This document shows positions 2,016-31,317 of a stretch of DNA of 64,000 nt, piece after piece. The number at the start of each line of letters is the position of its first letter. Positions within the stretch are counted from its first letter, which is position 1. Below the pieces are notes generated by a model. It was not told the origin of the DNA. It did not search any database and worked only from the letters and a program-made list of their open reading frames with translations. Made by a program: the position numbers and the translations under genes. The DNA lies in contig PDZV01000017.1 in the NCBI GenBank assembly GCA_002753135.1, forward strand, positions 1 through 64,000, given 5' to 3'. The DNA comes from Magnetococcales bacterium WMHbinv6 (GTDB taxonomy: Bacteria; Pseudomonadota; Magnetococcia; Magnetococcales; Magnetaquicoccaceae).

Positions 2016-2310
2016 CGCACACTCCTTAATAAAAAGCCAAAACAACCAATATCTTACACAAATCGGCCACTGTTATAGTCTAGCCTGTTTCCACCCCGTT
2101 TAAAAGCCATTCCTGCCAGACATCCCCCATTTTCATCCGCAGCATACCCTGAAGCAGTCGATTTATTGCCTGTTTGCGCCTGGTATTTGGGCAATGATTT
2201 TCGTTGATTGATGGGAAGATAGTGTGCTATTTTGGAGGAGCTGCCTTAAGGGCAAAAAGGATGCAACACAAGTGGGCGTTCCGGAAAAAGTGTAGAGGAG
2301 ATCATTGATC

Positions 2311-5300
2311 ATGGCATATACAGACGGTCCTACTGTATTTGGGCAAGCCGACTTACTGACCGTAGAGTCTGGTTCGCCCATGACCTCCACGACCCTGTAC
2401 AGCTTGGCCGATACCATTCTCAATGGTTTGACCTCGGCACAACTGGCCTACTTGCTGAATACGCAGCTGGATGGTCTCACCTCGCTGCAACTGGTCGCCC
2501 TGGCCAACAGCCAGCTGGATGGTTTGGCCTCCCTGCAGTTGAAAGCGCTGGCCGACAGCCAACTGGATGGCTTGACCTCCGCGCAACTCTCCGCTCTGGC
2601 CAACAGCCAGCTGGATGGTGTGACCTCCCTGCAGTTGCAAACGCTGGCCGATAGCCAACTGGATGGCCTGCCCTCCACGCAACTCACCGCGCTGGCCAAC
2701 AGCCAACTGGATGGTGTGACCTCCCTGCAACTGAACGCGCTGGCCAACAGTCAGCTCAACGGCCTGACCTCCACCCAGGTAGCCAGCTTGGCCAACACAC
2801 AGTTCAACGGGCTCACCTCTGCCGAATTGGCCAATTTGGCCAACACCCAACTGGATGGTCTGACCTCTCTGCAGCTGAAAGCACTGGCCGATACGCAGCT
2901 CAACGGTTTGGCCTCTCTGCAGCTGAAAGCGCTGGCAGAGAGCCAACTGGATGGCTTGACCTCGCTGTCCATTCAAGCTTTGGCCAACAGCCAACTGGAT
3001 GGTTTGACCTCTGCCCAATTGAGCGCCTGGGAAGATACCCAGCTGGATGGTCTGACCTCAACCCAGCTTACCGCTTTGTCCGGCAGCCAGCTGGATGGGC
3101 TTACCTATTTGCAATTGATGGCACTGGCGGACTCGCAACTGGATGGCCTGGCATCCGGTCAGCTGCTCACCTTGGCCGACAGCCAACTGATGGAGATCAC
3201 CTCCGCGCAATTGGCCGCATTGGTCAACACGCAACTGGATGGTCTCTCCTCCGCCGTCATTACCCAGATGGCTGACACCCAGTTGGATGGTTTTTCTGCA
3301 ACCCAGCTGGCAGGCTTTGCCTCCACCCAGTGGGATGGCATGCAATCCAACCAGTTGAACAGCTTGGCAGAGAGCCAGCTCAACGGTCTGTCATCGGTTC
3401 ATCTGGCTGCTTTGGCCAATACACAACTCAATGGCCTGCTTGGCCTGCAACTGTTCAATCTGGCCGATTCGCAGCTCAACGGTCTCAACGATAGCCATCT
3501 CACCGCCTTTGCCGATACACAATTAAACGGCTTGACCTCCCTGCAATTGAGTGGTCTGGCCGCCACGCAACTGAATGGTTTGACCTCCACACAATTGTCC
3601 TCCCTGACCGACAGCCAGTTGGACGGTCTGACCGCCACACATTTGCCCGGCTTGGCCAACACCCAATTAAACGGCTTGCACAGCGCTCATCTGCAAGGGT
3701 TGGCAGAGAGTCAACTCAATGGCCTGACCTCTACCCAACTGGCGGCTCTGGCCGATACCCAGCTCAAGGGGTTGAGTTCGGTTCATTTGACCTCGCTGGT
3801 CAACACGCAACTGGACGGCTTGAGTTCAATCCACTTGAACAAATTGGTCAGCACACAACTGGATGGGCTCGATTCGGCCCAATTGAAGGCTCTGGCAGGC
3901 AGTCAACTGGACGGTCTGACCTCTGTTAATCTGCAAGCCTTGGCCGACACACAATGGAACGGGCTGACATCCGTCCAATTGACCACCTTGGCCGTCACCC
4001 AACTGAAGGGGGTATCATCGAGCCAGTTAACCGCTTTGGCCAATACACAGCTGGATGGTTTAAGCTCCTTGCAGGTGCAGAATCTGGTTGACACACAGAT
4101 GGATGGTGTGACCTCCCTGCAATTGAAGTCCCTGGCTGTCACACAGTTGAATGGCTTAACCTCCATTCAGCTCAAGGATTTGATAGACACCCAATTGGAT
4201 GGTTTGACCTCGACGCAAATCACCGATCTGGCTGGCAGCCAACTGGATGGCCTGACATCGACACAATTAGAGGATTTTGCCGAGACTCAACTCAATGGTC
4301 TGACCTCTGCGCTGCTGCAAACTCTGGCAAACAGCCAGCTCGACGGCCTGACTTCGCTGCAGCTGCAGTCGTTGGTCAATACACAGCTCAATGGTTTGTA
4401 CTCCTCTCACCTCGCGGCCCTGGTTGATACGCAGCTCGATGGTCTAACCTCCAGTCAACTGGCCTCCCTGGCTGGCAGCCAACTCGACGGCTTGGGTTCG
4501 CAGCTGGTGACAAGCCTGGCTGATACACAGCTCAACGGTCTGTCCAGCGTGCAGCTGGCGACCCTGGCCAACACGCAATGGGATGGTGTCAGTTCCAGTC
4601 AACTGTCCGCCTTGGCTGGCACACAATTGAATGGTCTGACATCGGTCCAATTGGCGGGTTTCGCCGACAGTCAACTCAACGGACTCGGCTCTTCCCAGTT
4701 GAAAGAGTTCAACAACACCCAACTGGACGGCCTGACTTCCGCGCAACTCAACCAACTGGCCGACAGCCAACTCAATGGCCTGACCTCTCTCCATCTGACC
4801 AATCTGGCAGCAAGCCAGTTGAATGGTTTGGGTTATGAACAGCTCACCGGCTTGGCCAACACACAACTGGATGGCTTGACTTCTGACCAACTGGCCACCT
4901 TGGCGAATACACAGCTGGATGGTTTGACCTCGGGGCAACTCACCGCCCTGGCGGCAACCCAACTCAACGGATTGACCTCCAGCCAGCTCTCCGCATTGGT
5001 CGACACCCAACTGGATGGCTTGGTTTCCACCGATCTGGCCTCGTTGGCGGCGACACAACTCAATGGCCTCTCTTCCGTGCAACTGGGCGATCTGGTGGCA
5101 ACACAGCTGGATGGTTTGACCTCAAGCCAAATCGGCACGCTGGCAGATACGCAGTGGGATGACCTTGCCTCCGTCGCCCTGACCAGTTTGGTCAATAGCC
5201 AATTGGATGGCCTGACCTCTACCGTATTGGGCAGCCTGGACAATACGCAGTTGGATGGTTTGAGTTCCCTGCAACTCAAGGCGTTGGCCGCCACACAACT

Positions 5301-8300
5301 CAACGGTCTTACCTCGACGCAGCTTGCCGGCCTGGCGAACAGTCAGTGGGATGGACTCACCTCAAGCCAGTTGCTCGGACTGGTTGATACACAACTCAAC
5401 GCCTTCACCTCCAGCATGTTGACCAGCCTTGTTGGCACCCAACTGGACGGGCTCTCTTCTGTTGCGCTTACCGGATTGGCAGATACCCAGCTAAATGGCC
5501 TGGCTTCCAGCCAGGCGGCCTCTTTGGCTAACACCCAACTCAATGGCTTGACCTCATCACAGCTGAACAACCTCTCCGACACGCAACTCAACGGTTTGCT
5601 TTCCGGCCAGTTGGCCAGCTTGGCGGGCACCCAGCTCAATGGTCTCTCTTCCTTGCAGTTGAATGGTCTGGTTAACACGCAACTGGATGGTTTGACCTTT
5701 CAACAGCTCAATCAATTTGCCAATACACAACTGGATGGCTTGAGTTCGGCACAATTGAGCGAGTTGACCACCGCCCAACTGAGTGGCCTTTTTTCCGCCC
5801 AGCTCAGCAACTTTGCCGATACCCAGCTCGATGGTTTGACCTCAACGCAGATTATTCGTCTCGCCACCTCCCAATTGGGCGGTCTGACCTCAACACAGCT
5901 GGAAAGCCTGACCATCACCCAGATTGACGGGGTGACAACCAGCCAGATTGCCGCGTTGACAACAACACAAATGGCGGGCCTGAACAGCACCTTGCTGACC
6001 TCCCTGGATACAACGCAGGTACGTAGCTTATCCACCACGCAAATCAGCGCCTTGACCACCACCCAGATGGTCGGACTGACCAGCACCCAGGTTCAGACGC
6101 TGACCACACAGCAACTGCGTGGCCTGACCGCAACACAAATCAATACCTGGACTACCACGCAGATTGCCGGTTTGACAGCGACGCAAATTGCCAATCTGAC
6201 GGCCACGCAGGTTTCCGGCTTTTCGGTCACCCATATGAGCAGCTTGACCAGTGGACAAGTCTCCATGCTGACCACATCCCAAGTCAGCGGCCTGACCACG
6301 ACGCAGATTGATGCGATGGATACAACCCAAATTCGTGGCCTGACCAGCAGCCAGATCGTAATGCTGACCACCACGCAAATAGCCGGCTTGGCCAGCACGG
6401 ATATTGGCACTCTGAACACGGTGCAACTCAAAGGGTTGACCAGCACCCTGCTGGCCGCTCTTTCCACCACCCAGGTTGACGGCCTGAATACGACGCAAAT
6501 CGGCTCTCTGAGCACCGATCTGGTTAAAGGGTTCACCACAACACAAATTGCCAGCCTGGACACCACGCAGCTGCATGGTTTGAACACCACGCAGATCACC
6601 AGCTTGAATACGACCCAGTTGGGTGCCTTCGACACCACCCAGCTGACCTCTTTGTCTGCACAACAGATCAAGGGGTTGAACTCCAGCCAGATGGCTGCCT
6701 TGACGACAACGCAACTGGATAATCTGACCACCACCCAGATCTATGCGCTGACCACGACACAGATCCACGGTTTGACCACCACCCAGCTGGCTTCGCTGAC
6801 CACCACGGAGATGGCGGGCATTACCAGTTCGCATATTGCCGCCTTGACCACCCGGCAAATCAGTGGTCTGGAGTCGACCGATATTACGGTTCTGAGTACC
6901 ACTCAGCTGCAAGGGTTGAGCAGCACCCTGCTTGCCGTGCTGGATGCAAACCAATTATCCGGCTTCACCAATACCCAGATCAGCAATTTGCATTCGTTAC
7001 AATTGAAAGGGTTGTCAAGCACCCAGCTGGCGACGTTGACCACTACCCAGTTGGCTGGGCTGGGCAGTCAGCAACTGCGTACCTTGAGTACCACACAGAT
7101 GGTGGGATTGACCACCACCCAGGTGCAGTCGATGACCACGACACAGCTGGCTGGTTTGTCCACTTCCCAGGCAGCGGCACTGACGGCGACCCAGATGGCT
7201 GCCATGGATTCGATCCAATTGGGGGCGCTCTCCTCGTCGCAGGTAAAAGGGTTTACCACCACCCAGATCGGCAGTTTGACCACGACACAGCTGGCCGGAT
7301 TGGAATCCAGTGACATCAACTCCTTGACCGTGCTGCAAATAACCGGCTTTACCACCACCCAGTTGGCGGCATTGAGTACCACCCAGATAGGCGGAGTGAC
7401 CAGTACGCAACTGCGCGCCCTGAGCACCACGCAGATGACCGGTCTGGAGTCGACCGATATTCAAGCCATGACCACACAACAACTCTCTGGCTTGTCGGCA
7501 GTGCAATTGGGAGTATTGGATGTAACCCAGATCTCTGGCATGACCACAACCCTGATTGCCGCCCTGAGTACGATGCAACTGCGTGGCATGGTTACGACAC
7601 AACTGGAAAGTTTGACCACGACACAAATCTCTGCCTTGAGCAGCACCCACATTCGTTATCTGTCATCCACCCAGTTCAGCAGCCTGACGGCAACCCAATT
7701 GAACTCGATGACCCTGACCCAGGTTGCCGGTATCAGCAGCGACAAAATCGCCAACTTGACCACAACCCAGTTGGTCGGCTTGAGTGCAACAGATATCAGC
7801 GCCTTTTCGACAACGCAGATGAAATATCTGTCCAGCACCAACCTGGCGGCCTTTACCACAACCCAGTTGCAGGCGATCACCGCCACGGACATCAAAGTCA
7901 TCACCGTTTCTCAGCTTTCCGGGTTGGCTGCAACCCATATCGAAGCGTTGACGACCACACAACTGGCCACTGTGACCACAACCCAGATTGCCGCGCTGAA
8001 TACCACGCAAATTTCCGGCTTGGAAACCACTGACATTAACGTGTTGAGCACAACCCAGCTCAAAGGGTTGAGTTCTTTGCAGTTGTCGCTCTTCACCACA
8101 ACACAGTTGACGGGCTTGAATACCACCTTGATTGCCGCGTTGAGTACGGCGCAACTCAGAGGGCTGGATACCACCCAGGTGGATGCCTTGAGTACCACCC
8201 AGGCCATGGCGTTGTCCAGCACCCAACTGCGCAGCATGACGACAACACAGCTCAGCAGCTTGAACGTCACGCAAATTGCCTTGTTGAACGATACACAGGT

Positions 8301-10206
8301 GCGCGGGTTGGATACGGCACAGGTTTTTTCGATGACGACAACCCAGTTTACCACCTTATCCGCCACACAAATTGCCGCCTTGACCACGGCCCAGGCCCGT
8401 GCGCTCAGCAGTACACAATTGACCCTGCTCACCACCACGCAACTGGCCGCCATGACCAGCAGCACGATCCGTATTTTGACCACCTCACAAATTGCCAACT
8501 TAAGCAGTACATTGGTGGAAACCTTGTCTGCAGTTCAGCTCTCCGGTTTCACTACGGCACATATTGCTGCTCTTTCTGCCACCCAGGTTGGCGGTCTTTC
8601 GACGGCGATTGGTTATCTCTCTTCCTCGCAAATGAAGGGGCTTAGCTCGGCCCAGGTATCCGGGTTGACGGTGACACAACTGCAAAGCATGACAACCACC
8701 GTGCTGATCTCCCTGACTTCGGCACAGTTGCGCGGTTTTACCAGCACTCTGATTGCCGCCTTGAGTACCGATCAGGCAGTGGCGTTGACCTCGTTGCAGG
8801 TCAAATCCCTGACCACCACGCAAATTTCTGGTCTGGAAACCACCGATATCGCAGCCATGACCACCACTCAGATCAAAGGGGTGATGTCAGCGCAAATTGC
8901 TGCCCTGTCCACCACACAACTGGTCAGCATGACGACGGAGCAGGTGGCCATTTTGACCACTTCGCAAATGGCAGGTTTGAGCCAGACACAAATCACCGCC
9001 ATGACCACCACCCAATTGTCGGCCTTCGCCAGTTGGCAAATTCGGGCATTTTCCACGGTACAAATGGCTGGTTTGGACGAAACGCAAGTCGCTTCACTCT
9101 CTACCACCCAGATCAGGGGCTGGCTGGCGGCACAAATTCAAGCCATCACCACCAGCCAACTGGCAGCATTCACTGACACGCAAATCAGTGCGCTGACCAC
9201 GTTGCAAATGAGTGGTATTACCAGTACCCAGGTTGCCGTACTGTCAACCAGCCAAATTGCTGCCTTGACCTACACTCAGGTCCGTCAACTCTCGGTGGTT
9301 CAGGTAAGAGGGTTGACCACCACGCAAATGGCAGCCTTCAGCACCAGCCAGGCTGTTGCCTTGAGCAGTACGCAACTGGGGGTATTGACCAGCGATCAGG
9401 TGAACGGTTTTGAATCAACCGATCTGCTTGCTTTGACGCAGACGCAAATCAAGGGATTGACCACCAGCCATCTTTCGTCGTTGACAACTGCCCTCTACAC
9501 CAGCTTAAGCAGTACGCAGATTTCCGCCCTGACCGGAGCCCAACTGCGGATATTGACCTCGGACCAGGTGGCTCTGCTGACCACCGATCAAGTGACCGGT
9601 TTGAGCAGCACCCAAATGGCCACGCTGACAGTCAGTCAATTCAGTGGTCTGGAAACAACCGATCTGGCGGCGCTGAACACCACGCAGATTCGTGGCTTGA
9701 CCAGCGCCCAAGTGGCCTCATTCACAACCGCGCAACTGGCCGCGCTCTCTGCCACAGCAATTACCGCCCTCTCTACCATTCAGAGCAAGGCCATTCTGCC
9801 AGATTTGTTGAGCGGCATCAGCACCACCCAATTTGCCGCGCTGACCGCCACCCAGATTCGCACCCTGACCGCTGCTCAGGAAGGGGCGTTGAAAACCTGG
9901 CAAATTGCAGCCTTGACCACAACCCAACTCACCGGCTTGACTTCGGCGCAAATTAAACTGTTGACCACAGAGCAGACCTTGGCCCTGTCCAGCGACCAGA
10001 TTACTGCCATGAGCAACGGACAGATTGTCGGCTTAAGCAGCAAGATTGCGTTGCTGACGACATCGCAAGTGATCGGTCTGGAGGTCAGTGACTTCAACCT
10101 GTTCAAGACCAACATCAGATCCTTCACAGAAACCCAGATTGGAGCGCTCTCCGCCGATCAAAAAGCGGCCTACGTCACGGCTGGCGGCACCCTGTCGACC
10201 TCATAA
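2311..10206 (+). CDS. Giant 8/16-residue-repeat protein, function unknown
   Basis: This 2631-aa protein is about 270 kDa by estimate. After about 36 unique residues, almost everything to residue ~2618 is an octad repeat, about 320 copies. Up to residue ~1204 it is organised as 16-mers (LDGLTSxQLxxLANTQ style); after that it is mainly (I/L/V)xxLTTTQ. I noticed no cysteine and no hydrophobic signal peptide or TM helix. The S/T-x-x-Q motif preceding each (I/L)xxL could act as a helix cap, so a repetitive solenoid is plausible but unproven. The start is ATG 2311 (GAGGAG at 2295-2300); an in-frame TTG at 2305 is an alternative. The gene stands alone, divergent from the 2015 gene and convergent with bioA. 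Adhesin, surface-layer or filament roles are guesses. Confidence 0.85.
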   Translation: MAYTDGPTVFGQADLLTVESGSPMTSTTLYSLADTILNGLTSAQLAYLLNTQLDGLTSLQLVALANSQLDGLASLQLKALADSQLDGLTSAQLSALANSQLDGVTSLQLQTLADSQLDGLPSTQLTALANSQLDGVTSLQLNALANSQLNGLTSTQVASLANTQFNGLTSAELANLANTQLDGLTSLQLKALADTQLNGLASLQLKALAESQLDGLTSLSIQALANSQLDGLTSAQLSAWEDTQLDGLTSTQLTALSGSQLDGLTYLQLMALADSQLDGLASGQLLTLADSQLMEITSAQLAALVNTQLDGLSSAVITQMADTQLDGFSATQLAGFASTQWDGMQSNQLNSLAESQLNGLSSVHLAALANTQLNGLLGLQLFNLADSQLNGLNDSHLTAFADTQLNGLTSLQLSGLAATQLNGLTSTQLSSLTDSQLDGLTATHLPGLANTQLNGLHSAHLQGLAESQLNGLTSTQLAALADTQLKGLSSVHLTSLVNTQLDGLSSIHLNKLVSTQLDGLDSAQLKALAGSQLDGLTSVNLQALADTQWNGLTSVQLTTLAVTQLKGVSSSQLTALANTQLDGLSSLQVQNLVDTQMDGVTSLQLKSLAVTQLNGLTSIQLKDLIDTQLDGLTSTQITDLAGSQLDGLTSTQLEDFAETQLNGLTSALLQTLANSQLDGLTSLQLQSLVNTQLNGLYSSHLAALVDTQLDGLTSSQLASLAGSQLDGLGSQLVTSLADTQLNGLSSVQLATLANTQWDGVSSSQLSALAGTQLNGLTSVQLAGFADSQLNGLGSSQLKEFNNTQLDGLTSAQLNQLADSQLNGLTSLHLTNLAASQLNGLGYEQLTGLANTQLDGLTSDQLATLANTQLDGLTSGQLTALAATQLNGLTSSQLSALVDTQLDGLVSTDLASLAATQLNGLSSVQLGDLVATQLDGLTSSQIGTLADTQWDDLASVALTSLVNSQLDGLTSTVLGSLDNTQLDGLSSLQLKALAATQLNGLTSTQLAGLANSQWDGLTSSQLLGLVDTQLNAFTSSMLTSLVGTQLDGLSSVALTGLADTQLNGLASSQAASLANTQLNGLTSSQLNNLSDTQLNGLLSGQLASLAGTQLNGLSSLQLNGLVNTQLDGLTFQQLNQFANTQLDGLSSAQLSELTTAQLSGLFSAQLSNFADTQLDGLTSTQIIRLATSQLGGLTSTQLESLTITQIDGVTTSQIAALTTTQMAGLNSTLLTSLDTTQVRSLSTTQISALTTTQMVGLTSTQVQTLTTQQLRGLTATQINTWTTTQIAGLTATQIANLTATQVSGFSVTHMSSLTSGQVSMLTTSQVSGLTTTQIDAMDTTQIRGLTSSQIVMLTTTQIAGLASTDIGTLNTVQLKGLTSTLLAALSTTQVDGLNTTQIGSLSTDLVKGFTTTQIASLDTTQLHGLNTTQITSLNTTQLGAFDTTQLTSLSAQQIKGLNSSQMAALTTTQLDNLTTTQIYALTTTQIHGLTTTQLASLTTTEMAGITSSHIAALTTRQISGLESTDITVLSTTQLQGLSSTLLAVLDANQLSGFTNTQISNLHSLQLKGLSSTQLATLTTTQLAGLGSQQLRTLSTTQMVGLTTTQVQSMTTTQLAGLSTSQAAALTATQMAAMDSIQLGALSSSQVKGFTTTQIGSLTTTQLAGLESSDINSLTVLQITGFTTTQLAALSTTQIGGVTSTQLRALSTTQMTGLESTDIQAMTTQQLSGLSAVQLGVLDVTQISGMTTTLIAALSTMQLRGMVTTQLESLTTTQISALSSTHIRYLSSTQFSSLTATQLNSMTLTQVAGISSDKIANLTTTQLVGLSATDISAFSTTQMKYLSSTNLAAFTTTQLQAITATDIKVITVSQLSGLAATHIEALTTTQLATVTTTQIAALNTTQISGLETTDINVLSTTQLKGLSSLQLSLFTTTQLTGLNTTLIAALSTAQLRGLDTTQVDALSTTQAMALSSTQLRSMTTTQLSSLNVTQIALLNDTQVRGLDTAQVFSMTTTQFTTLSATQIAALTTAQARALSSTQLTLLTTTQLAAMTSSTIRILTTSQIANLSSTLVETLSAVQLSGFTTAHIAALSATQVGGLSTAIGYLSSSQMKGLSSAQVSGLTVTQLQSMTTTVLISLTSAQLRGFTSTLIAALSTDQAVALTSLQVKSLTTTQISGLETTDIAAMTTTQIKGVMSAQIAALSTTQLVSMTTEQVAILTTSQMAGLSQTQITAMTTTQLSAFASWQIRAFSTVQMAGLDETQVASLSTTQIRGWLAAQIQAITTSQLAAFTDTQISALTTLQMSGITSTQVAVLSTSQIAALTYTQVRQLSVVQVRGLTTTQMAAFSTSQAVALSSTQLGVLTSDQVNGFESTDLLALTQTQIKGLTTSHLSSLTTALYTSLSSTQISALTGAQLRILTSDQVALLTTDQVTGLSSTQMATLTVSQFSGLETTDLAALNTTQIRGLTSAQVASFTTAQLAALSATAITALSTIQSKAILPDLLSGISTTQFAALTATQIRTLTAAQEGALKTWQIAALTTTQLTGLTSAQIKLLTTEQTLALSSDQITAMSNGQIVGLSSKIALLTTSQVIGLEVSDFNLFKTNIRSFTETQIGALSADQKAAYVTAGGTLSTS
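2419..5919 (+). repeat. Coding repeat array A: 48-bp unit (16 residues)
   Basis: Units of 48 bp encode L(D/N)GLTSxQ followed by LxxLA(N/D)(S/T)Q. The Gly occurs in every second octad, so the true period is 16 residues. Copies are diverged at nucleotide level with many synonymous changes, which points to old duplication or protein-level selection rather than fresh expansion. A few units deviate, for example one with MEIT in place of DGLT near 3190 and one with DDLA near 5161. Confidence 0.85.
5920..10164 (+). repeat. Coding repeat array B: 24-bp unit (8 residues)
   Basis: The consensus shifts to (I/L/V/M)xxLTTTQ with Thr replacing much of the Asp/Asn/Ala of array A. Gly still tends to occur in alternate octads (xxGL), but the phase slips locally. 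Variant octads of the form GLE(S/T)(T/S)D(I/L) recur irregularly along the array. Short deletions are visible near 8605 (LSTAIGYL) and near 10040 (SSKIALL). Confidence 0.8.
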
Positions 10207-10215
10207 TTGCCACGC

Positions 10216-10260
10216 GCAAAAAAACACACAGCCGATGCTTGCCCCGCATCGGCTGTGTGT
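10216..10260 (-). terminator. Intrinsic terminator for bioA, shared with the giant gene
   Basis: A perfect 15-bp inverted repeat (ACACACAGCCGATGC at 10224-10238 with its complement at 10246-10260) encloses a 7-nt loop. On the minus strand it is followed by a T-run (the A-run 10218-10224 on plus), so it is a classical rho-independent terminator for bioA. On the plus strand no T-run follows, so the giant gene would use it less efficiently. It sits in the convergent gap. Confidence 0.85.
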
Positions 10261-10300
10261 TGCTGATCAAACGCCACAAATTTCAATCAGAGAATTTCAA

Positions 10301-11674
10301 TCAGACGGGCTGCCCGTTCATCTCACTTGCCGTAACCGGTGGCAACTGGTGCAACGCTTCGGCCACACAGTCCCAGGCTTGGTGCAGTTCGCTGTCGGAG
10401 ATGCAATAGGGCGGCAACAAATAGAGGGCATTGCCGAGAGGGCGCAGCAGAAAGCCTCTTTCCAGAAAAAATTTTCTTAAGAACAGACCAATCCGCGAGG
10501 CATAGCCGGCATCGTCGGCCACAATATCCAAGGCGGCGATACTGCCCACAACACGGGGATAGCGCACGCGCGGGTGGTCTGCCAATGCCGTTACCCGCGC
10601 CTGGTGAATGGCTTCCAGTTGGGCAATGCGCGGCAAGGTGTTCTCTTCCTCAAACAGGGCCAGGGCAACCAAGGCGGCGGCACAACCCAGCGGGTTGGCG
10701 GTAAAAGAGTGACCATGGGCAAAGGCCCGATCAAAACTGTCGCCCACAAAAGCCTGATAAATTTCTTCCCGACAAACCGTCACCGACATGGGCAGAAAGC
10801 CGCCGGTCAACCCTTTTGACAAACAGATAATGTCCGGGGTAGTGGCGGCACGCTGGCAGGCAAACAGAGTGCCTGTACGACCAAATCCTGTCATTACCTC
10901 ATCAAAAATCAACAACACTCCTGCCGCACGCAACCGCTCGGCCACCTGCTGCACAAATTGGGGGCGACACATACGCATGCCTGCCGCCCCTTGCACCAAA
11001 GGTTCCATTAAACAGGCGGCACAGCTGCTGCCATGCTCGGATAAATAACGATCCAGGGCATGCAAGGCCTCCCGTTCCTTGCCGTCAACCTGCGCATCCC
11101 CTTGCCAGGTTGCGGGAAAGGGAACCCAGTCTACCGGAAACAACAAGGAACGAAACGGCTCAAAAAAACCACTGGAACCCCCGACCGACATGGCCCCGAC
11201 CGTATCACCATGGTATCCCCCCTGAAAAGCCAGAAAACGTTCCTTCCTTTTTCCCTGGTTGTACCAATACTGACGGGCCATTTTCAGGGCCACTTCCACA
11301 GCTGTCGAGCCGTTATCGGAAAAAAAGAGGCGGCTCAACCCTTCCGGCAACCGGGCAACCAGCTTGGCGGCGAGTTGTGCGGCAGGTGGATGGGTAAAAC
11401 CGGCAAAGACCACCTGCTCCAGGATCATCGCCTGCTGCGCAAGGGCCAGTGCAATGCGGGGGTGACCGTGTCCGTGCGTAATGACCCACCAGGATGAGAT
11501 CAAATCCAAATAACTTTGCCCCTCTGGACCATACAAACTGGCCCCCCGCGCCGCGACAATGGGTGTCACCGGCGGTGCGGTCCCGGCTTGCGTAAAGGGA
11601 TGCCAGACATGCCTCTCATCCCACTGCAACCACTCTTCTGTCGCGAATGCTGGCGATGGTTTCTCTTGTATCAT
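10301..11674 (-). CDS. bioA: Adenosylmethionine-8-amino-7-oxononanoate aminotransferase
   Basis: BioA is a class III PLP aminotransferase that makes 7,8-diaminopelargonate from KAPA with SAM as amino donor, in biotin synthesis. The protein is 457 aa, slightly longer than E. coli BioA. Diagnostic stretches are WHPFTQ near residue 25, SSWWVITHGHGHP near 65, YHGDTVGAMSVGG near 155, the IFDEVMTGFGRTG block that binds the PLP pyridine, and SKGLTGGFLPM carrying the Schiff-base lysine. No other biotin gene is adjacent, so it is a single-gene unit ending at the terminator at 10216-10260. Confidence 0.93.
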   Translation of the reverse strand: MIQEKPSPAFATEEWLQWDERHVWHPFTQAGTAPPVTPIVAARGASLYGPEGQSYLDLISSWWVITHGHGHPRIALALAQQAMILEQVVFAGFTHPPAAQLAAKLVARLPEGLSRLFFSDNGSTAVEVALKMARQYWYNQGKRKERFLAFQGGYHGDTVGAMSVGGSSGFFEPFRSLLFPVDWVPFPATWQGDAQVDGKEREALHALDRYLSEHGSSCAACLMEPLVQGAAGMRMCRPQFVQQVAERLRAAGVLLIFDEVMTGFGRTGTLFACQRAATTPDIICLSKGLTGGFLPMSVTVCREEIYQAFVGDSFDRAFAHGHSFTANPLGCAAALVALALFEEENTLPRIAQLEAIHQARVTALADHPRVRYPRVVGSIAALDIVADDAGYASRIGLFLRKFFLERGFLLRPLGNALYLLPPYCISDSELHQAWDCVAEALHQLPPVTASEMNGQPV

Positions 11675-11749: not shown

Positions 11750-12859
11750 TTACCGCCGGGGTAAAGTGATCACCACCAGCGTACCCAACTCGGCACTGCT
11801 CTGCATCTGCACATCTCCTCCCTGGGCCCGCGCCATCAACAAAGCGGAATAGGTACCCAAACCGGTCCCCTGTTCCTTGCCATACGTTTTATATTTTTCA
11901 AAAAAATGCTCCCTGATAGCCTCGGGAACGGTGCCCACGTTATGAATCCGGATTGACACCATTGCCTCTGTGCGAAAATCCAGCGTCACCGTCACCTGCG
12001 CCCCTGGAGGGGAGGCTTCGACCGCATTTTTGATCAAATTGGCCAACAAAAAGTAGCAAAGCGTTTGATCGGCTGCCAAGGTGCAGCCATCTTCCTCTTT
12101 GTCTCGGGCGATGTCGACCACCATCACCACATGATGGGCCCGCACCAGAGCCGATAAATCATGACAGACCCGATTGACCACCCGACACATATCAAACGAT
12201 CGCGGCTCATAATGATAACGACCGGTTTCAATCTTATACAAATCCATGGACCGGTTGATCATTTCCAACATGCGATTGGCGGCGTGAATGGCGCGATGCA
12301 AACAATCAGCATGGTATTCAGACAAACCCGCCTCTTCCAAAACCACCTCCGAAAAGCCGATCACCGCCGACAAGGGCCCTTTTAAATCGTGGCGGGTAAT
12401 TCTTTCAATGTCATCACGAAGGCGTACCACCTCCTCCAACATTTCGTTACGTTTGGCCAACTCTTGCCGACTGCGGGCCAATTCCAGATGAATCGCCAGG
12501 CGGGCCAAAACAGTTGGAACCGAAAGAGGCTTGCGGATATAGTCGACAGCACCGGAGTGCAAACCGTTGAGTTCACTCTCCTGATCGGGAACAGCCGTCA
12601 AAAAAATAATTGGAATCTCCCGTGTTGCCTCCTCCATTTTCAAGCGGCGCAACACCTCAAACCCATCCATATCCGGCATGAGAATATCCAGCAGAATAAT
12701 CTCTGGATGCGGCGGTTTGAGTGCTTTGCATAAGGCATTTTCGCCATTGCGAGCGGGGACCACAGCGTAAAGGTCAGAAAGCACGGTCGTCAGCACTTCC
12801 AAGGTCTCTGCCGAATCATCCACCACCAGCACCTTGGGTTTGGCCTGGTTACTGCTCAT
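11750..12859 (-). CDS. Receiver-histidine kinase (REC-HisKA-HATPase)
   Basis: This soluble 369-aa protein starts with a receiver domain (phospho-acceptor D58 in LLDILMPDMDG) followed by a short coiled linker. A HisKA region with H157 (RHDLKGPL) comes next, then an HATPase domain with N-box NLIKNAVEASPP and G-box GTGLGTYSALL. It would be phosphorylated by a partner and then autophosphorylate, a typical phosphorelay intermediate. The ATG overlaps the end of the upstream hybrid kinase by 11 bp, and GGAGAA lies 5 nt upstream of it, so the two are coupled. The stimulus is unknown. Confidence 0.85.
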   Translation of the reverse strand: MSSNQAKPKVLVVDDSAETLEVLTTVLSDLYAVVPARNGENALCKALKPPHPEIILLDILMPDMDGFEVLRRLKMEEATREIPIIFLTAVPDQESELNGLHSGAVDYIRKPLSVPTVLARLAIHLELARSRQELAKRNEMLEEVVRLRDDIERITRHDLKGPLSAVIGFSEVVLEEAGLSEYHADCLHRAIHAANRMLEMINRSMDLYKIETGRYHYEPRSFDMCRVVNRVCHDLSALVRAHHVVMVVDIARDKEEDGCTLAADQTLCYFLLANLIKNAVEASPPGAQVTVTLDFRTEAMVSIRIHNVGTVPEAIREHFFEKYKTYGKEQGTGLGTYSALLMARAQGGDVQMQSSAELGTLVVITLPRR

Positions 12860-15797
12860 CTGTTTTCTCCTGCTTCAACTGCGCCATGAGCCTGACAAGA
12901 ATCGTTTGTGCCTGGTCCGTCTCAAATTCGGCCATATGCCGCAGCAACTCACTGCATAAAGGGGCATACGCGCTTTGACGCTGCAGATAGGGCATGATCT
13001 GCTCCAAGCTCCGTCGCGCCTCATCAAAGTCACCGTCCAGGGCATTGTACATCTTTTGCAAAAGAGGTTGCACCTCCTTTACTGAATCGGCACGAACCGT
13101 TTGTTCGACCTGGGCGGCAGGCGACTCCTGTTTGTGGATAATTTCTTCCAACAGTAACAACAACTGTTCCAGCTCTTGCATGAACTGATTGACCAGAAGC
13201 GGCGTTTCCCGCTGTTCTACGAGTGCCTGTTCCAGCTCATTTGCCTGCATGGCAACCGAGTGTGCCCCGATACTGGCCGCCGCACCCCGCACGCTATGCA
13301 CCAAACGTCGCGCTTCTTGCCGATTGCCCTGGATAAACGCCGTGCGCAACTGCTGTATGGTCTCCTTTTGCCCACGGCTGAAACGGCGGACAATTTGCCA
13401 GTATACCTGCTCGTTGCCACCCACCCGGCGAATGGCGGCCACCCAATCAAGTGCGGCTTCCAACTCTTCTGCTGGCCGATTGTCAACACGCACAGGAAGA
13501 ACAGATTGACGCGGCAGCGACTGACCATTCTCGCTCTCCGTCGCCCCAGGCAACAGGCGCAACAACACCTGATAAAGCTGTTTCGGATCGATAGGTTTAA
13601 TGATATGGTCGTTCATACCGTGGGCAAAAGAACGTTCCCGATCCCCTTGCATGCCATGAGCTGTCATCGCGATAATGGGTAGATGTTCTCCTCCTGGACG
13701 CTGCCGAATCAAACGACAGGCTTCCAGGCCATCCATCACCGGCATTTGTATATCCATTAACACACAATCGTAGGCTTGCGCGGCAATTTTTTCGATGGCC
13801 TGCTGGCCATTCATCGCCACATCGGATTTGATCCCGACTTGATGCAAAATTTCTTGTGCAATCAGCAAATTAATTTCATGATCATCCACCAGCAGCACTT
13901 TTACTCCATGCAAACGAAACAGGGCCTGCCATGACGGTTCCTGCTGGTTAAGCGTGTTATGGCTAAACACGTTCTGGCGAAAAACGGAAGCATCTGTGCT
14001 GTTTGCCGACTCGGCAATCTGCATCGGCAGCAAAAAGGTAAAACAACTGCCCTTACCCAGGCTGCTGGTGGCATAAATGGTGCCTCCCATCAACTCGACC
14101 AAATGCCGACAGATCGTCAACCCCAAGCCCGTACCACCATAACGGCGGGTGATGGTCCCATCGGCCTGTTGAAAAGCCTGAAATATTTTTTCCAGCTGTT
14201 CTGGTTCCATGCCGACTCCGCTGTCCTGGACAGAAAAAGCCACAGCGACACGGTCACCATGACGGACCAATTCGCGGACCGCAACCACAATTTCCCCTTT
14301 TTCGGTAAATTTGATGGCATTGTTCAGTAAGTTGGTCAACACTTGTCCGAGTCGTAGCGGATCCCCCAACCAATAGCGCGGCAAGAGATCTGTTGCTTCG
14401 ATACGAATGGACAGCTCTTTCCCTTCCCGATACCAGGTGGCCATATCCAACAGATCCGTGATCACCTCATCCAGATTAAAGATCACCCGTTCCATGCTGA
14501 TCTTGCCGGCCTCAATTTTGGAAAAATCCAAAATATCATTCAAAATCGCCAACAACTTGCGCCCTGCTCGCACCACTTTTTCCATGTGGCTCCGTTGTTT
14601 GCGCTCCAACTTGCCCTGCATGACCAACTGGCTCAAGCCCAATATCGCATGCATCGGCGTACGAATTTCATGACTCATATTGGCCAAAAATTCACCCTTG
14701 GCCCGATTGGCCAGTTCCGCCTGGCGTTCGCTTTGTTGCAGTTGCAAATAGGTCTGTTTCAACGTCTCTTCAACTTGCTTGCGTTCAGAAATATCGCGCA
14801 ACACACCGACAGTGCCAATAAAACGACCCTGACGATCACGTACCGGCGCACTGTACATGCCAGCACTGCTGATTTCACCGGTACAGGGCAGATCATTTTT
14901 GCTGCTGTTGGTGGCACTGTTGGCGGGCAGATTCTGTTTCGGGCGCAAGCGCACCTCCAACCCGAGGGTCTGGCGTTTGCCGGTACGCCGTTCATCAAAC
15001 AACTTGGGCGGGGATTTGAGTTGAGATGATCCTTTCAATTGTTTGATCAAATTGGCAAAACTGATCCGTTCCACCTCGCCGGTTTCGATGATCGTACTGA
15101 AATGTTGTCCCAACAACTCCTCGGTACTGTAACCCAAACGCTCCATGGCATGATTGATAAAGGTAAAACGCCCTTTGGCATCCAATTGGTAAATCATATC
15201 TGGAACTGTTTGCACCAAAGTCTGATATTTTTCCTTGGCTGCCAACAAATCGGCATTCAAGCGATTCATCTTGTCGTGCAACAGGTTCAGTTCATTGTTC
15301 TTGCGCAGAATGCTCTCATAAATGGAGAGCAAAAAATTGAGTACCTGATCCCGGTTGGAGTCAATTTGGAAACGACGCCCACCCGGCATTTCAATGTAAC
15401 GGGTGGGAAACTCTGACTGCAACTTTGACAACGGCAGTCGCAACAACTCCCAGATTTTACGGATCAGATCGGCTTCTTCGTAGGGCTTGAGGATATAATT
15501 GTCCGCCTTGGCCTCCAGGCCGAACAAAATTTCCTCCATGGTGGAGAGTTCTGATAGCAGAATGACCGGTATGGCCTGCCAATGCCGATTCTGCTTGATG
15601 ATCCGACACATCTCATAACCGGTCATCACCGGCATGTTGATATCGCTGATGACAAGATCGGGGGAACGTTCGCTGATCAGTTGCAAGGCTTCCTGGCCAT
15701 TGGTCGCGGTCAGCACTTGAAATTGATTGTTTTTAAGGATTTTTTCCAGAAAAAACGATTGCACCAAACTGTCTTCGACAACCAGGATGAGCGGCAT
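12849..15797 (-). CDS. Hybrid sensor kinase REC-PAS-HisKA-HATPase-REC-HPt
   Basis: This 982-aa cytoplasmic protein has no TM segment. Domains in order are REC1 (D52 in ISDINMP), a coiled region, PAS (about 200-330), HisKA with H376 ([11 protein letters not shown]), HATPase (about 425-590), REC2 (D682 in LMDIQMP), and HPt with H834 (LVHSVRGAAASIGA). All phosphotransfer residues are present, so an internal His-Asp-His relay is possible. The final 120 residues after HPt are helical-looking with no recognised domain. It is the first gene of a pair with the receiver-kinase at 11750-12859. Its signal is unknown; the PAS region could bind a ligand or cofactor. Confidence 0.87.
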   Translation of the reverse strand: MPLILVVEDSLVQSFFLEKILKNNQFQVLTATNGQEALQLISERSPDLVISDINMPVMTGYEMCRIIKQNRHWQAIPVILLSELSTMEEILFGLEAKADNYILKPYEEADLIRKIWELLRLPLSKLQSEFPTRYIEMPGGRRFQIDSNRDQVLNFLLSIYESILRKNNELNLLHDKMNRLNADLLAAKEKYQTLVQTVPDMIYQLDAKGRFTFINHAMERLGYSTEELLGQHFSTIIETGEVERISFANLIKQLKGSSQLKSPPKLFDERRTGKRQTLGLEVRLRPKQNLPANSATNSSKNDLPCTGEISSAGMYSAPVRDRQGRFIGTVGVLRDISERKQVEETLKQTYLQLQQSERQAELANRAKGEFLANMSHEIRTPMHAILGLSQLVMQGKLERKQRSHMEKVVRAGRKLLAILNDILDFSKIEAGKISMERVIFNLDEVITDLLDMATWYREGKELSIRIEATDLLPRYWLGDPLRLGQVLTNLLNNAIKFTEKGEIVVAVRELVRHGDRVAVAFSVQDSGVGMEPEQLEKIFQAFQQADGTITRRYGGTGLGLTICRHLVELMGGTIYATSSLGKGSCFTFLLPMQIAESANSTDASVFRQNVFSHNTLNQQEPSWQALFRLHGVKVLLVDDHEINLLIAQEILHQVGIKSDVAMNGQQAIEKIAAQAYDCVLMDIQMPVMDGLEACRLIRQRPGGEHLPIIAMTAHGMQGDRERSFAHGMNDHIIKPIDPKQLYQVLLRLLPGATESENGQSLPRQSVLPVRVDNRPAEELEAALDWVAAIRRVGGNEQVYWQIVRRFSRGQKETIQQLRTAFIQGNRQEARRLVHSVRGAAASIGAHSVAMQANELEQALVEQRETPLLVNQFMQELEQLLLLLEEIIHKQESPAAQVEQTVRADSVKEVQPLLQKMYNALDGDFDEARRSLEQIMPYLQRQSAYAPLCSELLRHMAEFETDQAQTILVRLMAQLKQEKTDEQ

Positions 15798-15836
15798 ATG
15801 ATCGATTAAACCTCTCTTGCTCTCATCCTCGTTAGA

Positions 15837-16196
15837 CTAGCGAATTCTGGTGCGACATTTCGGACACAAGACTCTGGCAGGACGATCATCCTCGCCTTCT
15901 TCATGCCACTCGACATGCCATTGGGAACGAATGGCCTCTTCCAAACACCCCTCAAACCAGGCGTAACCATCACAAAACCGTCGACCACGAATCGGAGTAC
16001 GCCGATCCCATTGACCAGGAGGAGGAAGATCGATTTTGCGCCGATCCAAGGTTTGTCGACGATCCAACTGTAACCGACGTTTGTCAACAAACGGTAAAAC
16101 CCGCGCTTGCAAATTCAACTTGGCGGCACGCCGGTCTGGACGGTAAAAATCCTGAGGATTGCACTGTCCACAATACAAACGAATGACCTGCGCCAC
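15837..16196 (-). CDS. Small protein with split CxxC pairs, unknown function
   Basis: This 119-aa protein has CxxC near the N-terminus (CGQC, 9-12) and another at the C-terminus (CPKC), a layout that could hold one zinc ion. Between them it is basic, with repeated DRR/DKRR motifs, and has two extra Cys. The start is GTG at 16196, supported by AGGAGGAGAA about 9 nt upstream. It follows the 154-aa gene by 25 bp and probably shares its transcript, next to the hybrid kinase operon. No family recognised; a regulatory or nucleic-acid-binding role is only a guess from charge. Confidence 0.6.
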   Translation of the reverse strand: MAQVIRLYCGQCNPQDFYRPDRRAAKLNLQARVLPFVDKRRLQLDRRQTLDRRKIDLPPPGQWDRRTPIRGRRFCDGYAWFEGCLEEAIRSQWHVEWHEEGEDDRPARVLCPKCRTRIR

Positions 16197-16221
16197 AACC
16201 TTCTCCTCCTGAAGTCAATGA

Positions 16222-16686
16222 TCAGGCATTACCGACCGTTGTGATAAAAGCACCGTCATCCGATCCGGTAAAAAAATGGCCATCCGCATCGTTCGCCACT
16301 TCTTCATCAAAACGCCCCAGAAGCGTACTCAAACCATGAATGACCTGACCTTGCGCGGTCATGAAACGATCCACCTGCCGACTGAGCAGGGCATTTTCCT
16401 GTTCGACCAGATCGATATAATCGTCCCGATCAGCAAGTTGTTTGCGCAATTCAGCATTCTTGGCATGCAGGCCGGCGATGGTCTGCATTAAACCACTCAT
16501 GCGGGCTTCCAACATGACCAGCGCATTGCCCGCCAAAGCGGATTTGTTCGTTTGCACAGGGGCTGCAACTTCCAAAGTGGCCATCGAATGATCCGCAGGA
16601 AAAAGAGCTTCGCCTAACGCATATGCCGAAATGTTTGCATTACCCTGTTGAACTCCTGACAGTTGCTGATGTCCTGATACATTCAT
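16222..16686 (-). CDS. Coiled-coil protein of unknown function
   Basis: This 154-aa protein has an N-terminal third rich in Gly, Ala, Gln and Asn. A central heptad-like stretch (about residues 60-115, AKNAELRKQLADRDDYIDL) predicts a coiled coil, and the C-terminal tail is acidic and Gly/Asp-rich. It has no signal peptide and no known domain. The start at 16686 is chosen because AAGGAG sits 7 nt upstream (within 16694-16700), rather than an in-frame start 18 nt earlier. It lies directly upstream of the CxxC protein and between two sensor kinase operons, so it may be part of that signalling unit. Confidence 0.6.
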   Translation of the reverse strand: MNVSGHQQLSGVQQGNANISAYALGEALFPADHSMATLEVAAPVQTNKSALAGNALVMLEARMSGLMQTIAGLHAKNAELRKQLADRDDYIDLVEQENALLSRQVDRFMTAQGQVIHGLSTLLGRFDEEVANDADGHFFTGSDDGAFITTVGNA

Positions 16687-16864
16687 GCTGCGTCTCCTTA
16701 ACATTCTGTTTTATCTTCTTAAATTACCGATACACAGGATGTTGCACCGGCACTGCAGAATGTTAAAGCAAATTTGAGACCAAACATAAAACGTTTGAAT
16801 CATAAGGAAAATTTAATCAACCAGCCGCCAAAGTGTCGCTCCTGTGGCACCTGGTTGTGCAGAC

Positions 16865-18244
16865 TTATTTATACTGCATCGCAAAACAACCATTCCAATC
16901 CTCTGGTGGGGGTTCGCTACAGAACTGGATGCTTCTCTCCAGATAGATTTGTGACACGACATCACCGGGATCAATCTCCAGACAGTTCCGGAACAGCTCC
17001 CGTCCCCGCTGCCAACGACGGGCAAAAAAATGTTCTAAACCAAGCAGATACGGCTCTAACAACTCTTGTTTGCGCAAACGAAGCGGCTCTGGATCCGCCT
17101 CAAACAGCTCATGAATCAACACCGATTGCGTTTTCCCCTTGACGATCACTCGATCCAGAGGTCTGGTCAAAAAACGACCCGGTTCCAGCAGGGCAAAAAC
17201 ATCATCCGAAATCACAATCCGGGCATCGTAATATTTGGTCAAACCTTCCAGACGCGCGGCCAAATTGGCGGCATCGCCGATCACCGTTGAATCCATCCGG
17301 CTTTCATTACCCAAGGTACCCATCATCACCGGTCCGGTATGCAAACCAATACCAATAGCAATCGGATCACGCTGCGACAAAAGTCGTTCCTGGTTATAAG
17401 CGAGCAGACGCTGCTGCATACCGATCGCAGCCTGGGCTGCATTACTGGCTTGGGTTTTTTCATCGCCATCAAATAAAGCCATGATGGCATCACCGATAAA
17501 TTTATCGATAAACCCGTTATTATGATCGATGGCCCCCTGCATCCGTCCCAGATAACCATTCAACAACATAAAAATATCACTGGGGGACATGCTTTCGCAC
17601 AATTTGCTGAAGGAACGAATATCGCTGAACATGACCGTAATGGTACTCAATTCCACCGTACCCGGTTTGATATGTTCCAAACCTTCTTTGGCGATACGTT
17701 CCAAAAACTGTTTTGGCACAAATTTTTCGAATGCCTTCATGATCATGGCAACAGCCTGGGTCTCCGCCAGTTCAATCCGGGTGCGTCGCAGTTCTTCATA
17801 AGCCCGCCTCTGTTCTTCCAGAGAATGCGTCAACTCATTATTCAGGGCATGAATGCGGTTACGCGACAACACGTTTTCCAAGTGGGTCAAAACACGGGCA
17901 TGTACCACAGGAGGGCTGATCGGTTTGGTAATATAATCCACGGCCCCCAATTCAAACCCTTTGACTTCGTCCTCCACCCCATGCATGGCGGTAATGAAAA
18001 TAACGGGGATCGATCGGGTGGTTGCATCCTCTTTCAAACGACGACACACCTCATAACCATCCATACCCGGCATCATGATATCCAGAAGGATCAAATCCGG
18101 TGGCAGTGCCGAGTGTACGGCCCGCAAAGCCTGCTCACCACTCTTGGCCACCAATGTTTCGCAGTAGGAGGAGAGCAGATTGCTCAATACCGTAATATTA
18201 AAACGCTCATCGTCAACAATCAGGACTCTGCCCTTGCGTTCCAT
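16865..18244 (-). CDS. Response regulator with class III nucleotide cyclase
   Basis: This 459-aa protein has an N-terminal REC domain with D55 (LLDIMMPGMDGYEV), a helical linker, and a class III adenylate/guanylate cyclase domain (about 200-385). Metal-binding Asp are seen in MFSDIRSF and in FIDKFIGDAIMALF. The Lys of DKFIGD and the Asp-Thr block RMDSTVIGDAANLAARLE fit adenylate cyclase specificity better than guanylate. A C-terminal helical region resembles a TPR (GRELFRNCLEIDPGD). The ATG overlaps the stop of the upstream hybrid kinase (ATGA), with GAGGAGG ahead, so the kinase is its likely phosphodonor. The product is predicted to be cAMP. Confidence 0.87.
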   Translation of the reverse strand: MERKGRVLIVDDERFNITVLSNLLSSYCETLVAKSGEQALRAVHSALPPDLILLDIMMPGMDGYEVCRRLKEDATTRSIPVIFITAMHGVEDEVKGFELGAVDYITKPISPPVVHARVLTHLENVLSRNRIHALNNELTHSLEEQRRAYEELRRTRIELAETQAVAMIMKAFEKFVPKQFLERIAKEGLEHIKPGTVELSTITVMFSDIRSFSKLCESMSPSDIFMLLNGYLGRMQGAIDHNNGFIDKFIGDAIMALFDGDEKTQASNAAQAAIGMQQRLLAYNQERLLSQRDPIAIGIGLHTGPVMMGTLGNESRMDSTVIGDAANLAARLEGLTKYYDARIVISDDVFALLEPGRFLTRPLDRVIVKGKTQSVLIHELFEADPEPLRLRKQELLEPYLLGLEHFFARRWQRGRELFRNCLEIDPGDVVSQIYLERSIQFCSEPPPEDWNGCFAMQYK

Positions 18245-21200
18245 CACCGCCCCTCCTCGATGAGATTGACATTGCAACAGCGTGCGAGCGCATCCAGGGC
18301 GGTCAACGCTGTTTCAAACTCATATTCTTCAATGGCTTGTTCCAGACGCCGACACAGCGACTCACAGGAAGTGCCGACAAGGTGTACTTTTGTCTCCGTC
18401 AGCTTGTCAAGAGCGCGAGAATGCCCGGCAGACAAAAGCTGCTTTAATTCCAGCAACAACGATAACAATTTCTCCTGATTGATCTCGCCGCCAACAGAAA
18501 CTGTCACTGCCTGGGCTGCAGCATCAACCTCTGGATTGGCAATAACTGTCTGAACATCGGGCTGTAACGCTGCAATCCCGGCAATAATCCGTCCGATTTC
18601 GCCACTGAATTGTTCCAAAAAAACACCATACTCTGACTCTTCCTTCAAAGCATTTTCCAGATCGCGGGTAATACGGTGCAACGCATGCGCCCCCAATGAT
18701 CCGGCTATGCCCTTGACAGTATGGATCTGCCGCAGCACTTCCTGCCGCTTTCCCTGCTGCAAATGGCCGCGAATCACTGCAACAACATTTTGATAATCAT
18801 GATAAAATTCTCTCAACAGACGGTTGAATAATTCACGATTACCGGCCACCTGCCGCAACCCGGTCTTCACGTCAATGCCAGGCAATTCGTGTTGCGGCAC
18901 GGTAACCATTTTGTTTTCCGCTCTCAACTGAGCCGACTTGACGGCAGAACGGTCCGCAGGAGTGATCCATTGCACCAAGGTCTTGAACAATTTATCTGGA
19001 TCGATCGGTTTGGTAATATGGTCGTTCATGCCGGCGGCAATGGACTTTTCTTTATCACCAACCATGGCATGCGCCGTCAAGGCAATGATGGGCAGATTCT
19101 CTCCTCCCGGCATTTGCCGGATACGTTTGGTTGCCTGAAAACCATCCATTTCCGGCATTTGAATATCCATTAAAGCAATATCGAACGCTTGATTTCTGAC
19201 AGCCTCCACCGCCTCCAGACCATTACCAACCACCGTAACCTGTAAACCATGCCCCTCCAACAAGGCGGTGGAAACCTGTTGGTTGATTTTGTTGTCATCC
19301 GCCAACAAAACATGTGCCCCCATGATTTTTTGCGCCGCTTCCGTACTCTGTATCGGATCCAGCTTACGGTTTTTTCTTCCTTCTCGCACTGTGTGACCAA
19401 AAGCTGCCTGAATGGCAGCAAACAGCTGGGAAGGATTGACCGGTTTCGGCAAAAAGGCGTTGAGCAAATGTCGTTCAGAGGGTGGTATCACCTCCTGACG
19501 ATTGTATGGCGTCACCAAAATGATCCGAAGTTCTTGCCCAAACATAGAATGTTCACGAATACGTCGCGCCAGGTCCAGACCGTTCATGTGCAGCATTTTC
19601 CAGGTCAAGATAAGCAAACGATAGGGCTCCTGCTCCGGGTCGCGTACCGCCTCCTCCAACATCTGAAGCGCCTCTTCAGCGGATGTGGCGCAAAAAGGCA
19701 GGCAGGAATAAGCTCTCAGCATGTCGGTGCAAATCTCCTGAAAGCGTTGGTGATCATCAACAACCAACACCTTCATGCCCGTCATCTCTTCACCGAGAAT
19801 CAAACTGTGCGGATTGTTCTCCGCCTGCAAACCAAACCAGGCATTGAAATGAAATTGGCTCCCTTTGCCCAATTCACTGTTGACGCCAATGGTGCCGCCC
19901 ATCAATTCGACCAAATGCTTGCAAATCGACAAGCCCAACCCGGTACCACCATATTTGCGGGTCGTAGAGGCATCGGCTTGCGAAAAAGGACTGAACAAAC
20001 GCCCAATCTGTTCCTCGGTCAGGCCAATACCGGTATCCTCCACCTGAAACTGTAACTCGACCTTCTCTTCCCATTCGCGCAAAAAGCGAATACTGATCAC
20101 AATATCCCCCTGCGCGGTAAATTTAATCGCGTTGGCCGTCAGATTGGTCAAAACTTGTCCCAGTCGCAACGGATCGCCCATCAACTGCGTCGGCACATCT
20201 TCACTGCGGGAAAACAACAAAAACAGCCCCTTCTCCTCTGCCTTGACACAGACCATGTTGGCCAAATTTTCCATGGTTTCATCCAGATTGAAGCCTACCG
20301 ATTCCATGTGCATGCCACCGGCTTCAATCTTGGAAAAATCAAGAATATCATTGATAATGCCCAACAAAGCGTGCGCAGAAAAATGAATTTTGCTGATATA
20401 ATCGTGCTGGGTATCGGTCAGATGGGTACGCAGGGTCAAATAACTCATACCGATGACGGCATTGATCGGTGTGCGTATCTCATGGCTCATGTTGGCCAAA
20501 AATTGTGACTTGTATTCACTGGTGCGCTGCAACTGTTCAATCGTGTTGTTCAACTCTGTTTGGCTGAGGATTAATGCCTCTTTTTGCTCCATGGTCTGGC
20601 TCAACAGGGCACGATTGCGCAAAATGGACTGAATGCCAACAATCGCCACGGCAATCGCCCCGGCGACTCGACCGGCAAAATCCAGCGAAGAGGGAGGAAG
20701 CGGCTGGATCCGCCCCAAGGTAATCACCCCGAAAAGTTGATCATTATGCATGAGAGGCATGGCAATCAACGTGCTGGGTTGCAAATCCATCACCCCGGTG
20801 CGAATGACAAAACAATCGGATGGAATATCGGTCAACACCTTGATGGCACGTTCCTCAATCACCGAGCCCAGCCATCCCTCCCGACAATTCATTGTCTCTG
20901 GCAACAGTGCTGGCGCAATGGCATGACTGGAATAGAGCCGCAAACGGCCATCCTCTTCCAGCAGATAGAGACTGCCTACCTGGGCCTCCATGGCACGAAT
21001 CATAAAATGCAGACTGGCTTGACATAACGTCTCAACATTGTCCGCCTCGCGCATGGCCCGGTTCAGTTGCACCAGGCTGCGCTCCTGGTTCAAACGCAGT
21101 TGCACCTGTTCATGTTCTTTGCTGCGCAGAGTAACCAGATCCCGCCCCATTTGCCGCATGGCCTGGACCAGACGGTTGATTTCAACGATCGGTGAGGTGG

Positions 21201-22422: not shown

Positions 22423-22456
22423 CGGAACACCCCTTAATGCAAACTGTGGAGGGGTA

Positions 22457-22477
22457 GGGGGGCCATCCTGGCCCCCC
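22457..22477. repeat. 9-bp GC hairpin upstream of the hybrid kinase
   Basis: The stem GGGGGGCCA/TGGCCCCCC encloses the loop TCC in the gap between the SPOR gene and the kinase start. There is no T-run on either strand, so a strong rho-independent terminator is unlikely. It would sit about 35 nt upstream of the kinase start codon and could act as an mRNA stability or leader element. Confidence 0.4.
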
Positions 22478-22548
22478 ATGCGACCGCAGCGATCATACAC
22501 GAAGACCGTTCAAGAATAAAGCAGCTTGCTTAAAATTTGCAATATTTG

Positions 22549-30050: not shown

Positions 30051-30065
30051 CTGCTTCTCCTCCGT

Positions 30066-31220: not shown

Positions 31221-31230
31221 GATGCACCGT

Positions 31231-31246
31231 CTCTCTCTCTCTCTCT
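31231..31246. repeat. (CT)8 dinucleotide tract at the nirJ start
   Basis: Eight CT dinucleotides (GA on the coding strand) lie 10 nt upstream of the chosen nirJ ATG and downstream of an alternative in-frame ATG. On the mRNA it is a GAGAGA tract that may serve as an unusual purine-rich ribosome site. Length changes would shift the frame from the upstream ATG. Confidence 0.6.
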
Positions 31247-31317
31247 TCATCACCGATCAGAGCGTGTAAAAAAAATCTGCTACCGGACTTGCCCTCAACG
31301 ATGGCTGCACAACCTAC

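Follow-up and report, generated by a model that had tools for sequence, protein, structure and literature searches.

A giant octad-repeat protein of a Magnetococcales bacterium belongs to the ALTTAQ family, whose genes are associated with type I exporters and GT41 glycosyltransferases

The 64,000-nucleotide stretch of Magnetococcales DNA analysed here (the window) encodes a 2631-residue protein of the Pfam ALTTAQ repeat family, and members of this family are linked to, and co-occur with, genes for GT41 glycosyltransferases and type I exporters. These observations are best explained jointly, and probably correctly, by a protein that is O-glycosylated in the cytoplasm, secreted by a type I secretion system (T1SS) and displayed at the cell surface as a rod or helical screw. 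The repeat family was already known, without any role that we found described; its association with a type I exporter and a GT41 enzyme is new.

Results

The gene reads as one intact frame from an ATG at position 2311 (Table 1) and, as an earlier note on this DNA had held, its product is built almost entirely of octads: a dynamic-programming parse, trained on the protein itself and thus slightly generous, counts 323 octads over 2584 residues. The note had called these units near-perfect, which is true of their spacing, with only three register slips (near residues 2097, 2576 and 2599), but not of their sequence, as the commonest exact octad occurs only five times. By the parse, position 1 is S, T or A, positions 2 and 3 are mostly S or T, position 4 is Q (83%), position 5 is L, I or V, and position 8 is L (80%). 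Self-identity at lag 8 is 0.33 versus 0.114 ± 0.006 in shuffles (maximum 0.133), about 37 standard deviations above. Across residues 41-1340 two octads alternate, which makes the true period 16 (0.55 at lag 16, 0.36 at lag 8), and the rest of the protein after this zone consists of a simpler T-T-T-Q octad. Serine and threonine make up 772 residues (29%). The note had reported neither cysteine nor signal peptide: the 2631 residues indeed contain no cysteine, and a visual reading of the N-terminus likewise finds no signal peptide. The short N-termini of ALTTAQ proteins are alike across taxa. N-X-S/T sequons are depleted (17 versus 28.4 ± 4.6 in shuffles), which argues against N-glycosylation and led us to reject modification of the HMW1C type.

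The octad gene is real and no artefact. Misassembly, which the note had named as a possible refutation, was rejected because the gene lies inside its contig, the frame is intact and exact repetition in the DNA extends to 24 bp at most; with copies this diverged, repeat collapse is unlikely. Identity between repeat copies at codon positions 1, 2 and 3 is 0.57, 0.71 and 0.43, and this excess of third-position divergence, together with the short exact repeats, shows that the copies are old and have been maintained at the protein level.

Table 1. Features of the octad-repeat gene and its immediate surroundings (window coordinates)
Feature	Position	Strand	Remarks
Divergent neighbour, 435 aa	738..2045	-	no Pfam match
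Shine-Dalgarno-like AGAGGAG	2294..2300	+	10 bases before ATG; from sequence
ALTTAQ octad-repeat gene, 2631 aa	2311..10206	+	ORF, Pfam scan, octad parse
Short N-terminal stretch, residues 1-24	2311..2382	+	mostly non-octad; no signal peptide by eye
Zone 1, residues 41-1336	2431..6318	+	16-residue units, alternating octads LDGLTSxQ / LxxLADTQ
Zone 2, residues 1337-2575	6319..10035	+	T-rich octads LTTTQIxx
Predicted solenoid, residues 2392-2631	9484..10203	+	one 5-6 residue helix per octad; AF2 pLDDT 89
Divergent C-terminus, residues 2576-2631	10036..10203	+	ends QKAAYVTAGGTLSTS; candidate export signal
Terminator-like 16-pair stem with T-run	10223..10261	-	for convergent gene, perhaps both
Convergent neighbour, class-III aminotransferase	10301..11674	-	PF00202

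The note had recognised no domain and could not name the fold. The protein matches PF20080 (ALTTAQ repeat, ALTTAQ_rpt) over 59 stretches, far above the gathering cut-off (E 1.3e-202; 655.6 bits against 26.4), and a solved protein, PDB 9ZEM, carries the same octad. This family, defined by sequence, occurs in Pseudomonadota, Geobacteraceae, Holophagaceae and Spartobacteria; the window copy differs in being long, in the 16-residue alternation of its first half and in its membership of a large in-genome family. PDB 9ZEM ('HeliScrew4') is the nearest solved chain by sequence (E 3.9e-13; profile E 1.8e-20) and itself matches PF20080 (E 1.2e-28). Compared by sequence only, it shares the octad, the S/T N-cap and the L/I core positions, but it has 120 residues and its polar positions are mostly E, D, K or P where the window protein has T or Q. 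In the literature searched, we found no mention of the ALTTAQ repeat and no paper describing HeliScrew.

Structure prediction of consecutive octads, called for beforehand, gave a helical solenoid for the last 240 residues: AlphaFold2, supplied with an alignment made from other parts of this protein, predicted 28 short helices in residues 2392-2631, roughly one for each octad (pLDDT 89, pTM 0.78). With one short helix per octad, the S/T-x-x-Q motif would be the helix N-cap box. These predicted helices and the match to 9ZEM support the long solenoid that the note had suggested. The N-terminal 296 residues yielded no confident fold (pLDDT 40). Pfam matches to LRR, CAAP1 and DUF6432 were rejected as composition-driven, no single stretch passing by itself, and the scan contained no RTX family (GGxGxDxUx nonapeptides) up to E 0.1. 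We also rejected a phage tail fibre: tblastn with the N-terminal part matched none of 50,697 phage records. Phage-protein structures (BFVD) gave only three weak fold matches to the octad protein.

The gene is monocistronic, isolated between divergent and convergent genes as the note described. Its view that the surroundings give no hint of function stands for the window locus, where no exporter or GT41 gene lies nearby, but not for relatives, whose gene neighbourhoods are informative. Within its genus the window copy has been gained or lost: the site is empty in one congeneric genome (G001), where the aminotransferase gene is immediately followed by a homologue of the 435-aa neighbour (74% identity), without an ALTTAQ gene in the interval; in another relative (G002) an ALTTAQ gene precedes the aminotransferase gene, with an N-filled gap between them. 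A perfect 14-bp tandem repeat, AATTTCAATCAGAG, lies at 10279-10305 over the aminotransferase stop region. A pentapeptide-repeat gene (PF00805, PF13599; 142-741, minus strand) adjoins the divergent neighbour. Further along the minus strand lie a dense signalling block (11750-22500), with a response-regulator kinase, a 982-aa hybrid kinase with Hpt, a response-regulator adenylate/guanylate cyclase and a 1418-aa BarA-like hybrid kinase, and genes for cytochrome-c/beta-propeller proteins (28491-34783) that weakly resemble lactonase-type nitrous-oxide reductase and hydrazine synthase beta, at scores well below cut-offs.

About nine further ALTTAQ loci occur in the same genome (contigs C29, C40, C28, C42, C23, C37, C71, C76 and C70), some with frames of more than 5000 and up to about 6000 residues and four cut by contig ends; several breaks of the assembly fall inside these paralogues. 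Together the ALTTAQ genes encode about 25,000 residues, about 2% of the assembly, with lengths that are partly minimal. Three paralogues end much like the window protein, so that four share the C-terminus Q[KR].AY..AGG, a likeness in sequence that is only suggestive of a secretion signal. Among 61 genomes, ALTTAQ genes were present in 16 of the 18 from the same family and in none of the others. On contig C29, a paralogue of about 6000 residues is divergent to rmlA, rmlC, rmlD and a gene (L010:10425-17807) whose 2460-aa product has three TPR-GT41 modules. Another giant fused glycosyltransferase, a 3767-aa relative with at least four GT41 matches, is encoded in G001 (L057:250-11553).

In a sister-genus genome (G007), the ALTTAQ gene stands in a row with genes for HlyD and an HlyB-type ABC exporter and with a divergent gene for a 1263-aa TPR-GT41 protein, and ALTTAQ, HlyD, HlyB and TPR-GT41 are likewise together, by coordinates, in G008, G009, G010 and G011; G014 has the ABC exporter and GT41 beside ALTTAQ, with HlyD not detected. 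The genome of the window encodes an orthologue of the exporter ABC protein (C29:94656; 65% identity; TIGR01846, E 6.7e-176) on the same contig as the paralogue of about 6000 residues, and an HlyD orthologue on contig C2 (51% identity). With exporter orthologues counted at 64% identity or more, exporter and ALTTAQ are concordant in 38 of 41 relatives (15 with both, 23 with neither, one with ALTTAQ only and two with the exporter only; Fisher P 3e-8). The exceptions are G013, which has ALTTAQ without such an exporter, G026, an 8%-contaminated assembly, and G012, where exporter and GT41 lie at a contig end and the ALTTAQ gene may thus simply be unassembled. The C39-like domains of the exporters appear, by eye, to lack the catalytic Cys, as in HlyB, which suggests that no leader is cut. 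No known T1SS signal was matched in the window protein, and ALTTAQ C-termini differ between taxa. A related Pseudomonas member has a D/N-rich terminal domain that looks calcium-binding and is named by no Pfam or NCBIfam model, and an EF-hand was matched only weakly, in one Burkholderiales member.

Similar neighbours recur further afield. At 78 named ALTTAQ loci from other taxa, a sample gathered with a single Pseudomonas protein as query and biased towards Pseudomonas-like members, T1SS genes were present at 19. GT41 lay in the flanks of 25 of these loci, not all mutually independent, where 0.24 would be expected in 605 kb of flank at the density seen in 30 such genomes (roughly 68 GT41 genes in 176 Mb). 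Neither was in the flank of 42 loci, in many cases because the ALTTAQ gene takes up the whole of the retrieved sequence. Annotated neighbours include T1SS and OGT in Cereibacter and Pseudoroseomonas, and T1SS and a glycosyltransferase in Pseudomonas. GT41 is encoded by every one of the 30 ALTTAQ genomes examined. Across 149 genomes of the genus Pseudomonas, GT41 occurs in 14 and ALTTAQ in eight, all within those 14 (hypergeometric P 6e-10), and in six of the eight the ALTTAQ and GT41 genes share a contig, no more than about 6 kb apart. In the wider group of the window's genome, GT41 is also encoded by 34 of 45 relatives without ALTTAQ; it must therefore have other substrates, and its mere presence there is uninformative, so that linkage is what counts.

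Discussion

Under the proposed mechanism, the ALTTAQ protein would be synthesised in the cytoplasm with no signal peptide, and some of its serines and threonines would be decorated there by a TPR-GT41 (OGT/SPINDLY-type) glycosyltransferase. An HlyB/HlyD-type I secretion system that recognises a putative C-terminal signal would then carry it out of the cell in a single step, while it is still unfolded. Outside, every octad would fold into a single short, N-capped helix, and the stacked octads would build a long helical screw, a sugar-coated rod that may act at the surface as an adhesin, a sheath or a component of the matrix. The window copy, unlinked to either partner gene, would share the export route of its family and presumably use the orthologous exporter and GT41 encoded elsewhere in its genome. 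In the literature searched we found no paper describing an ALTTAQ-GT41-exporter system, nor one combining OGT with T1SS.

Parts of this proposal have precedents. Serine-rich repeat glycoproteins and HMW1/HMW1C are systems in which a giant adhesin is glycosylated in the cytoplasm by a dedicated, linked glycosyltransferase before export, and HMW1C is a GT41 enzyme too. The ALTTAQ system would differ from them in its T1SS export, as opposed to accessory Sec or two-partner secretion, in its TPR-type GT41, and in having no cell-wall anchor and depleted N-sequons. Paracoccus BapA, a type I-secreted protein of 2211 aa with 891 Asp-Ala repeats, is required for biofilm (PMC5588039); ALTTAQ proteins resemble BapA and RTX adhesins in being giant and of low-complexity repeat, with exporter genes adjoining in relatives, but consist of helical octads rather than Asp-Ala or Ig/RTX units, and have a GT41 partner and no RTX match. 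The adhesin, sheath or matrix role is suggested by this likeness to BapA and is the weakest step of the proposal.

Alternatively, the octad protein may be exported by the T1SS yet remain unglycosylated, with the neighbouring GT41 modifying another surface component. This would fit the wide occurrence of GT41 without ALTTAQ in the order and the clustering of rml and other sugar genes at surface-polysaccharide loci. We consider it unlikely, as GT41 is rare in Pseudomonas yet present in every ALTTAQ genome of that genus and mostly in tight linkage, and as TPR-type GT41 enzymes modify proteins and 29% of the octad protein is Ser/Thr.

Somewhat less likely again is a superhelical, lectin-like matrix protein that binds the cell's own glycans instead of bearing them. 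Like stereocilin, mesothelin is an extracellular superhelix of short helices, and it gave the best Foldseek PDB match (E 3.9e-5); it has been proposed as a superhelical lectin (PMC2628672), a role that is itself a prediction. The TM-scores of only about 0.3 suggest that the likeness is one of local helix packing only. A cytoplasmic helical scaffold that is never exported would suit the apparent lack of a signal peptide, the absence of an exporter at the window locus and the often intracellular location of helical solenoids, but seems improbable because ALTTAQ genes are linked to T1SS genes in the sister genus and in several other taxa, and because the exporter tracks ALTTAQ across relatives. 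Several records, including ones in Cereibacter, carry annotations of ice nucleation or heme utilisation; either role is very improbable, since the Pfam scan matched no ice-nucleation or haemagglutinin family and the predicted fold is helical, not beta.

The glycosylated, type I-secreted rod thus remains our preferred reading of the window protein. Its extension to a widespread system, in which TPR-GT41 enzymes densely O-glycosylate giant ALTTAQ screws and dedicated T1SSs thread them out as mucin-like surface rods, is one to which we give slightly less than even credence.

TPR-GT41 enzymes are relatives of eukaryotic OGT and SPINDLY, and to our knowledge the targets of the bacterial OGT-like members are mostly unknown; the ALTTAQ protein is a candidate substrate for them. 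For a Pfam repeat family that spans Pseudomonadota, Geobacteraceae, Holophagaceae and Spartobacteria, our analysis offers a hypothesis at the level of mechanism. If true, it would bring a helical-screw solenoid together with glycosylation of the OGT type and with type I secretion in one testable system, for which laboratory Pseudomonas and Cereibacter sphaeroides 2.4.1 are tractable hosts.
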